Below are positions 23,655-60,109 of a stretch of DNA of 64,000 nucleotides, in pieces. Both the position numbers and the translations under genes were made by a program. Source of the stretch: Mytilinidion resinicola (taxonomy: Eukaryota > Ascomycota > Dothideomycetes > Mytilinidiales > Mytilinidiaceae); assembly GCF_010093595.1 (NCBI RefSeq), contig NW_022985440.1, forward strand, positions 461,215-525,214, in the 5' to 3' direction. How positions within the stretch are numbered: position 1 is the first letter of the stretch; each line of letters begins with the position of its first letter. The notes beneath the pieces are model-generated. The model was not told the DNA's origin, searched no databases, and saw nothing but the letters and a program-made list of their open reading frames with translations.

Positions 23655-25718
<2,064 letters not shown>

Positions 25719-42158: not shown

Positions 42159-42921
42159 GGACGAAAGGAAATAGTGCAGCAGGGGGGACCATGGGTATGA
42201 AGTATTCATGCTCCTGAAGGCGGTGTGTTCTATCGATGATGATGGAGGGTTTGGAGTCAGCTTGACTTGAGCTGGCTTCATGAGACTCATGAGGCGATAT
42301 GAGAAATGAAATGAACTTCTCTGAACTCAAGACATGTTGTAATTGTGTAAGAGACTCGTTTTAAGGAATGTGTTGCATCAGCTCTCGCAATTGTGTGCTA
42401 GAAGACAGCTGACTTGACGCGAGTTGAGAACTGCAAACCTGCTGCCAACTTGACCTTAAACTTATGGAATCATCATATGTCCTAAAGCAATCACATATGA
42501 TCCTATTACACCCGCTCCAAGGGACAATACGAACGAATGTCTTCATGCTCCAGGAGAACTCCTGGATGACCAAGGGCGGAGTCTACTCCTTCCTGCTCGC
42601 GGCTAACTCGAACACAACGAAATCAAGTACCGAAACACTGTTTCGACGCAATTACCTAGCAGTTCATTAGGTAGATGATTTAGTAATTAATCTTCATGAA
42701 TTGCTACGAACGATACATAGCCCTGCTCAATCGCGTGATGGCCCATAAAAGGCAGAGCTTGGATTTACCCACTTGCCAATCCATCAGTGAAGCAACACGT
42801 AATCAACACACACCGAACAGCGTCCAAAAAAACCGCCTAGAGGCCCCAGCTCCCCCTCCTTGAAGGCTGCAAAGGCAAAAAAAATCAAAAAAATCTGGAC
42901 ACTTTGGGAATTGCACACCAC
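42159..42921. other. Intergenic, core/accessory transition
   Basis: 3' flank of the small gene and then AT-richer sequence with no coding signal, ending at the tRNA gene. This is the left edge of the accessory region. Confidence 0.45.
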
Positions 42922-42925
42922 AAAA
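42922..42925 (-). terminator. Pol III terminator (TTTT) of the tRNA-Ala gene
   Basis: AAAA on the plus strand reads TTTT on the tRNA strand, starting four bases after the discriminator base. This spacing supports real Pol III transcription. Confidence 0.75.
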
Positions 42926-42928
42926 GAA

Positions 42929-43068
42929 TGGACGCTGTGGGAATTGAACCCACGACCTTTCACAAATACGTATCGAGAAGATGCGAAGCGAACTATTGTT
43001 GGTTAGATGAGTAACCTAGGTAAGGTTTTCATGGTGAACTTACAATCATACCCCTAGACCAAGCGCCC
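42929..43068 (-). tRNA. tRNA-Ala(CGC) interrupted twice: canonical intron plus a 51-nt spliceosomal-like insert
   Basis: Read on the minus strand from 43068. Acceptor strand GGGCGCT pairs with AGCGTCC (42936-42930) with a G3:U70 pair, the alanine identity element; discriminator A at 42929. The D arm is TGGTCTAGGGGTATGATT (A-box fit). The anticodon stem is TTCGC (42992-42988) with GTGAA (42963-42959), and the loop TT-CGC-A gives anticodon CGC. The variable loop is AGGTC. The T arm is GTGGG, TTCAATT, CCCAC (B-box fit). A 17-nt intron (42981-42965) sits at the canonical 37/38 position. A further 51-nt insert (43043-42993) falls exactly between positions 26 and 27. It begins GTAAGT, holds CTAAC 9 bases before its end, and ends AATAG. 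With both removed, the mature tRNA is 72 nt with all stems intact. Confidence 0.82.
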
Positions 43069-43523
43069 TTGTGGACAAGATACTGGATCTTGTTTCCAGA
43101 TAATTGGAGAACGAAGAAAAGATTTAGTTTTATATAGGCTTTTACATGTTTCTTCAAGGCGTGCCATTACTGAATCCTAGGATTTCTATCCCCCCCCGTC
43201 TTTCGCCGTCAATCAGCAAGCGCTGCTAGCCTGATTTTCAGTGGGTGAAGAGTTTTTTGTGTAAGCACGGTATTAAACTTGGCGCCGCCCCACCTCCTGA
43301 AATAATACGCGCCTGTTCCCAAAACACGATCCCGAATACACTCTTTCACCACGTTGAGCCGGATCAATAAATCAATGTACCTGCGCCGCAATGGCCATTC
43401 GAAATAGAGGCCGCCCCCCCGCTGCTGGGGCGCTGGCCGTTTTAATTTCCCTCCGCTGCCCACTTATCAAAACCTACGCTTTTGACCTCCTGCCGCACCC
43501 CTCCTTACATCTTGACCTTAACC
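43069..43523. other. Left flank of the recombinase relic
   Basis: No supported gene. An 84-codon minus ORF (43209-43463) and an overlapping plus ORF show no recognised motifs. If the relic at 43524 was a mobile element, its 5' end should lie here; I could not identify a terminal repeat or target duplication. Confidence 0.4.
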
Positions 43524-59999: not shown

Positions 60000-60109
60000 G
60001 AGCGCTTGGTCTAGGGGTATGATTGTAAGTTCACCATGAAAACCTTATCCAGGTTCCTCATCTAACCAACAATAGTTCGCTTCGCATCTTCTGGATACGT
60101 ACTTGAAGG
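60000..60109 (+). pseudogene. Truncated tRNA-Ala copy carrying the same 51-nt insert
   Basis: Aligns to the tRNA at 42929-43068 from the acceptor 5' strand (GAGCGCT, one change) through the D arm (identical) and the insert (60025-60075, 51 nt, three substitutions, GTAAGT/CTAAC/AATAG all kept). It continues through TTCGCTTCGCATCTTCT and ATACGTA to GAAGG. The T arm and 3' acceptor strand are missing, so no B box and no mature tRNA. It lies on the opposite strand to the first copy. Confidence 0.85.

Follow-up and report, generated by a model that had tools for sequence, protein, structure and literature searches.

Spliceosomal-type introns in a tRNA-Ala(CGC) gene and at least 22 further nuclear tRNA genes of Mytilinidion resinicola

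Results

Structure of the tRNA-Ala(CGC) gene

The minus strand of the window, by which we mean the whole 64,000-nt stretch of M. resinicola DNA that was analyzed, carries at 43068-42929 a tRNA-Ala(CGC) gene that is interrupted twice. All features of this gene lie on the minus strand. Exon 1 (43044..43068) is 25 nt long, covers tRNA positions 1-26 with position 17 absent, and holds the 5' strand of the acceptor stem, the D-arm and the A box. It is followed by a spliceosomal-type GT-AG intron of 51 nt (42993..43043), which sits exactly between positions 26 and 27. This insert starts with the 5' splice-site motif GTAAGT (43038..43043), in agreement with the consensus of the 32 inserts described below, contains a branch-site motif, CTAAC (43002..43006), 9 nt from its 3' end, and finishes in AATAG with the 3' splice-site AG at 42993..42994. 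The next exon (42982..42992, positions 27-37) supplies the 5' strand of the anticodon stem and the anticodon CGC. A 17-nt canonical intron at 37/38, the position of the tRNA-endonuclease type, occupies 42965..42981 and was reported by ARAGORN once the 51-nt insert was removed. The last exon (42929..42964, positions 38-73) contains the T-arm, the B box GGTTCAATTCC, the 3' strand of the acceptor stem and A73, and a TTTT run resembling a Pol III terminator lies at 42922..42925.

With 43043-42993 deleted, ARAGORN folded the gene into a 72-nt cloverleaf carrying the 17-nt 37/38 intron. All 7 acceptor pairs and all 5 T-stem pairs form, and the identity elements G3:U70 and discriminator A73 are present, so that the locus combines the cloverleaf, G3:U70, A73, an Ala anticodon, A and B boxes and a T run, as a nuclear tRNA-Ala gene does. 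The ends of the 51-nt insert are unique, no equivalent shift giving an identical product. The anatomy and boundaries proposed in the preliminary description proved correct.

Searches of the unspliced DNA returned little. ARAGORN found no tRNA in the 64,000-nt window when introns were disallowed; when they were allowed, it called one Ala(CGC) at 43068-42929 with a single 51-nt intron misplaced into the anticodon loop. No Rfam family scored above threshold anywhere in the window, and no group I or group II intron match was found above threshold in the window or listed at 42800-43200. The sub-threshold matches from a permissive Rfam search of 42800-43200, for example tmRNA at 18.4 bits against a cut-off of 47, were rejected.

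A whole-genome DNA search with the gene returned that gene and one truncated copy only. This copy, at 60002..60105 on the plus strand of the window, is 95% identical to bases 3-106 of the gene; it keeps exon 1, the entire 51-nt intron with its signals and the anticodon part. Both T-arm and 3' end are missing, and the copy is clearly dead. An uninterrupted Ala(CGC) gene, the finding that the preliminary description had named as counting against its reading, was located neither by the whole-genome DNA search nor among the 67 tRNA genes resolved below. The sister Ala(AGC) genes (L066 and L067) are continuous across 26/27, without the insert.

mRNA and U6 introns of the same genome

We mapped mRNA introns exactly in the window with M. 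resinicola's own proteins. In this small sample from two genes, the four introns are 48, 49, 58 and 76 nt long and the starts are GTAAGT, GTAAGC, GTGAGC and GTATGT. The kinase gene at 23655-25715, minus three introns, gives the exact 626-residue M. resinicola protein, and the ETF-QO encoded in the window is 100% identical to a protein named for Mytilinidion resinicola. These protein identities assign the genome to that species (Dothideomycetes). The four introns resemble the Ala(CGC) insert in size and signals, in keeping with the earlier observation that its signals are those of the mRNA introns of this genome.

One U6 snRNA gene (L154, G000:C1:2369760-2369910) contains an intron, GTACAC...CTAACGTCAACTAG, between ACAGAGAAG and ATTAGC, and this intron (GTACAC...CAACTAACGTCAACTAG) is similar to the tRNA inserts. 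The remaining 16 U6 matches measure 99-103 nt, which leaves no room for an intron; eight of them were read. These eight have a TATA box, and most have a B-box-like stretch downstream. A U6 variant with an altered ACAGAGA box (L035) was discounted as important, the eight other copies being normal.

Census of interrupted tRNA genes

The 47.1-Mb assembly (44 contigs) was searched by two approaches. The Rfam tRNA model gave at least 35 places at E <= 0.001, with 63 of 1387 candidates scored, and several of these places showed an insert ending CTAAC...AG immediately before the B box. The second approach was a pattern search for a B box and then a T run, with loci read individually. GGTTCRANYCC plus five Ts matched 100 times in the genome, and its reversed control 7 times; loci with more than one T run contribute more than once to the 100. 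Other B-box patterns gave 38 against 8 and 123 against 21 among the matches listed, and early pattern searches, which discriminated weakly, gave 4 against 3, 29 against 15, 10 against 6 and 13 against 13. Since the early patterns rose barely above their reversed controls, true tRNA genes were picked out by reading.

At least 67 tRNA genes were resolved, a lower bound that covers the places fetched and read: 44, by our manual reading, are without GT-AG-type inserts outside 37/38 and 23 have them. Four tRNA-like loci (L009, L108, L127 and L129) were left out of these counts. Anticodons were assigned by reading the loop because ARAGORN isotypes were wrong for several genes (Phe given as Val, Lys as Ala). 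The 23 genes hold 32 inserts at about 19 tRNA positions, given here in our own numbering, and none of the 32 lies at 37/38. The Ala(CGC) gene, initially taken as a single odd case, is in fact one of at least 23.

The inserts lie at 26/27 in Ala(CGC) and 10/11 in Ala(TGC); at 52/53 in Arg(ACG), 53/54 in Arg(TCT) and in the D-loop before G18 in Arg(CCG); at 47/48 in both Asp(GTC) a and b; at 28/29 in Gly(GCC) and in Ile(AAT); and at 14/15 and 26/27 in Ile(TAT). Leu(AAG) is interrupted at 16/17 and 30/31, Leu(CAA) at 17/18 and 34/35, Pro(TGG) at 49/50, Pro(AGG) at 45/46, Ser(GCT) a at 30/31 and in the variable arm, and Ser(GCT) b and Ser(AGA) at 52/53. The others are at 16/17 in Val(AAC) a, 32/33 in Val(AAC) b, 24/25 and 51/52 in Thr(TGT) b, and 26/27 in Cys(GCA) b. 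Two of the three initiator-Met genes have three inserts each (18/19, 26/27 and 52/53 in a; 18/19, 23/24 and 53/54 in b) together with one canonical intron. In Leu(CAA) (L086, upstream of G000:C1:97281-97319, minus strand), the anticodon itself is divided, as C|AA, by a GT-AG intron. In Arg(TCG) (L016) and Thr(CGT) (L144), a long insert close to the canonical site has GT-AG-like ends; both were classed as canonical, since this gives a fitting loop length.

Several other loci were seen in the course of reading. An initiator-Met gene at G000:C20:219480-219850 (L138) is without GT-AG introns and has an unusual D-arm. A multi-copy tRNA-like family, TCCGGTGTGGTTTAGTTGG...CGCCGGAC (L152, L157, L161, L164, L165 and more), possibly represents tRNA-derived repeats. 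Small loci that are not tRNA genes fall into four groups of similar members (L041/L042/L052/L160; L134/L135; L104/L105/L107; L155/L156); they combine a TATA-like stretch with a B box and a T run and perhaps encode Pol III RNAs. Rejected by reading, as chance matches or non-cloverleaf Pol III-type genes, were L029, L030, L034, L038, L040, L053, L054, L057, L061 and others, and also L145, L153, L163, L170 and L171.

Splice signals of the inserts

The 32 inserts start with GT (28), GC (2) or GA (2), and every one ends in AG. Position +5 is G in 31/32 and position -3 is C or T in 27/32; lengths run from 49 to 57 nt, plus one of 65 nt. A YTRAY branch motif occurs in 29/32 inserts compared with a mean of 4.0 and a maximum of 10 in shuffles, and CTRAY with its A 6-16 nt from the end occurs in 26/32 compared with a shuffle mean of 2.2. 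Because the boundaries had been chosen to restore a tRNA, equivalent shifts were counted as well. Among 80 equivalent boundaries in all, GT/GC-AG is possible for 30/32 inserts, with a chance expectation of ~0.6 (80 x 2/256, our arithmetic). In a contrast set of 37 ARAGORN introns (5 to 75 nt) from 41 loci of genes without such inserts, GT/GC-AG was found within 3 nt in 2. With 32 such inserts in 23 tRNA genes and this excess of GT/GC-AG, the sequences indicate that the Ala(CGC) insert is more than chance.

The two GA-AG introns, a non-standard class, belong to two Ser genes (L010, G000:C24:257740-257882, and L011, G000:C17:609403-609534). Both start with GAAAGTG at 52/53, have a normal branch site and end in AG, and no equivalent boundary is GT-AG; an alternative 5' site, GAAA|GTG, was rejected as it would break the T-stem. 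YTRAY is absent from intron 2 of Thr(TGT) b and is replaced by CTAAG in two introns of initiator Met b. C is found at +9 in 15/32 inserts and at +10 in 17/32, frequently in the form ACC, a short way in from the 5' splice site.

Boundaries of the inserts

Allowed introns of up to 40 nt, ARAGORN found a tRNA in 23/23 genes after exact removal of the inserts compared with 1/23 unspliced. When the boundaries were shifted, 23 of the 23 were still found at -2, -1 and 1, 22 at 2 and 3, and 19 at -3, falling to 15 at 5 and 7 at 12 in either direction. Because ARAGORN tolerates shifts of 1-3 nt, this result shows that the inserts must go, not where exactly they end. With introns of up to 120 nt allowed, 9/22 unspliced genes were called, 4 of them with the wrong isotype, compared with 22/22 spliced. 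ARAGORN differed from our manual reading of the spliced genes in naming Ile(AAT) as Asn and Leu(AAG) as Val.

The predicted ends of the inserts are instead set by the stems and by paralogs. Spliced junctions match uninterrupted paralogs at 18/18 bases for Gly(GCC) and Ile(AAT), at 17/18 twice for Asp(GTC), and at 16/18 and 14/18 for Val(AAC) a and b. In all six comparisons zero shift was best or was tied solely with equivalent boundaries. For the more distant paralogs (Leu-CAA, Leu-AAG, Thr and Cys), other shifts scored as well as zero or better.

Integrity of the interrupted genes

After removal of the inserts, all 23 genes have 7/7 acceptor and 5/5 T-stem pairs. Pairs also change jointly across introns. 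In the initiator genes the T-stem pairs co-vary (AACG|G/CCGTT vs TGCGG|/CCGCA), and in the Asp genes the acceptor stem has co-changed at 5:68 and 6:67 (TCCTCAA/TTGGGGA vs TCCTTGA/TCAGGGA). The B box from G53 is continuous in the DNA of 23/23 interrupted genes; for introns at 52/53 and 53/54, the final G of the intron supplies the letter preceding the B box. The A box pattern is matched in the DNA of 20/23, the exceptions being Ala-TGC, Arg-CCG and Ile-TAT, and a T run lies within 40 nt downstream in 23/23.

Nine tRNA kinds are also represented by uninterrupted copies, namely Gly(GCC), Ile(AAT), Asp, Leu(AAG), Leu(CAA), Val(AAC), Cys, Thr(TGT) and initiator Met. For ten anticodons every gene located carries inserts: in this incomplete inventory of at least 67 genes, no uninterrupted gene was found for Ala(CGC), Ala(TGC), Arg(ACG), Arg(TCT), Arg(CCG), Ile(TAT), Pro(TGG), Pro(AGG), Ser(GCT) or Ser(AGA). 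Among the genes found, ordinary wobble would leave the codons AGA, AGC/AGU, UCU/UCC, CCU/CCC and CGU/CGC without any other usual reader.

Discussion

Nature of the inserts

The inserts have the features of U2-type spliceosomal introns, namely GT(GC)-AG ends with a 5' splice-site consensus, a branch motif near the 3' end, and the size and signals of mRNA introns. We weighed this reading against three others. The truncated copy at 60002-60105 (+) is clearly dead, and uninterrupted copies exist for nine of the tRNA kinds, from Gly(GCC) to initiator Met, which would be expected if all intron-bearing copies were dead and every tRNA were supplied by uninterrupted genes elsewhere. We consider this very unlikely because the stems are intact and pairs change jointly across the introns. 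The mature parts, the B box and the T run are preserved in 23/23 genes, and for ten anticodons the (incomplete) inventory holds no uninterrupted copy.

The inserts might also be ectopic bulge-helix-bulge introns and be excised by the tRNA splicing endonuclease. The red alga Cyanidioschyzon merolae has ectopic introns of this type, in tRNA-Ile(UAU) at 12/13, 37/38 and 53/54 according to the accessible part of PMC9602550. In a simplified test, however, bulge-helix-bulge complementarity was found in 0/32 inserts under strict rules (null mean 0.3) and 3/32 under relaxed rules (null mean 3.0). This explanation also leaves the GT-AG ends and branch motifs unaccounted for, and just 2/37 ARAGORN introns from the 41 loci without such inserts have GT/GC-AG within 3 nt. 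Nor is the location that of a Sen-type intron, with 26/27 in Ala(CGC) and 0/32 inserts at 37/38, and we regard endonuclease cleavage of the inserts as highly improbable. Finally, the narrow range of insert lengths and the common signals would suit a single mobile, introner-like element that has inserted recently and repeatedly and resembles an intron without being one. An all-against-all blastn (E <= 0.1) of the 32 introns argues against this, as the longest shared stretch was 21 nt, between two Asp paralogs, and all others were 10 to 12 nt. This test of near-identity took in the 32 introns, the rest of the genome having been searched with the Ala(CGC) gene alone; we give the mobile-element explanation almost no weight.

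The same mRNA-type marks in at least 22 further tRNA genes imply that the mRNA-splicing machine very probably also splices tRNAs in this fungus. We consider it highly likely that the 51-nt insert of Ala(CGC), like at least 31 others in the 23 nuclear Pol III tRNA genes, is a spliceosomal intron of the U2 type, and that it is removed from the pre-tRNA by the spliceosome. The anatomy, the genome-wide repetition, the intron-free paralogs and the pairing preserved across introns are directly seen; from the sequence we infer that the spliceosome takes the inserts out and in what order the processing steps follow. The Ala(CGC) gene would be transcribed by Pol III from its A and B boxes, and U1, U2 and U6 would recognize GTAAGT and CTAAC in the nuclear precursor. 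The spliceosome would then excise 43043-42993 from the nuclear pre-tRNA before the tRNA endonuclease acts. The spliceosome is placed first because the tRNA endonuclease reads the mature tRNA fold. Folding of the cloverleaf would be possible only afterwards; RNase P and RNase Z would trim the ends, and the 37/38 intron would then be removed by the Sen endonuclease and Trl1 ligase. Acceptance of a non-Pol II transcript by the spliceosome is known for U6.

Implications and comparison with known systems

In the textbook view, nuclear tRNA introns belong to the tRNA endonuclease and normally lie at 37/38. M. resinicola appears to break this rule in at least 23 genes and at about 19 positions, including genes that look indispensable. 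It is likely, in our judgment, that roughly one nuclear tRNA gene in three depends on the spliceosome in this fungus and that two unrelated splicing machines act successively on one precursor. Two initiator genes would then require the spliceosome three times and the tRNA endonuclease once, and one Leu anticodon would be assembled from two exons. We hold it equally likely that this couples protein synthesis to the capacity for mRNA splicing and that Pol III genes acquired introns on many independent occasions. The genome is a naturally occurring test case for three questions: can short Pol III transcripts serve as substrates of the spliceosome, at which places do new spliceosomal introns insert, and how does an internal promoter withstand an intron? 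Interrupted genes of this kind are overlooked or wrongly named by standard tRNA finders.

Spliceosomal introns are known in the U6 snRNA genes of S. pombe and other fungi. As in the tRNA genes, an mRNA-type intron lies in a small Pol III gene, and M. resinicola itself has one such U6 gene (L154). However, U6 is part of the spliceosome, whereas the tRNA hosts have internal promoters and a second splicing system. In the titles and abstracts searched, spliceosomal introns were not described from nuclear tRNA genes, although a report may exist in subscription papers or bioRxiv preprints, and the accessible parts of PMC4090602, PMC11782384 and PMC8450103 report none.

The rDNA of lichen ascomycetes contains a few spliceosomal introns, and introns of this kind were spliced out of a Pol I transcript in yeast, according to the accessible part of PMC8527467. 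These too are spliceosomal introns outside Pol II transcripts, but the host there is Pol I rRNA (PMC8527467, in part) and in M. resinicola Pol III tRNA. In C. merolae, the accessible portion of PMC9602550 describes several introns per tRNA gene in the D-, anticodon and T-arms with one at 37/38, an arrangement like that seen here; those introns have bulge-helix-bulge motifs, whereas in the M. resinicola inserts such complementarity is at chance level and GT-AG ends and branch sites are present. Noncanonical tRNA introns of archaea, as far as the accessible text of PMC8450103 describes them, are similar in numbering two or three per gene with many off the canonical position, but differ in being archaeal and in having been found by bulge-helix-bulge models.
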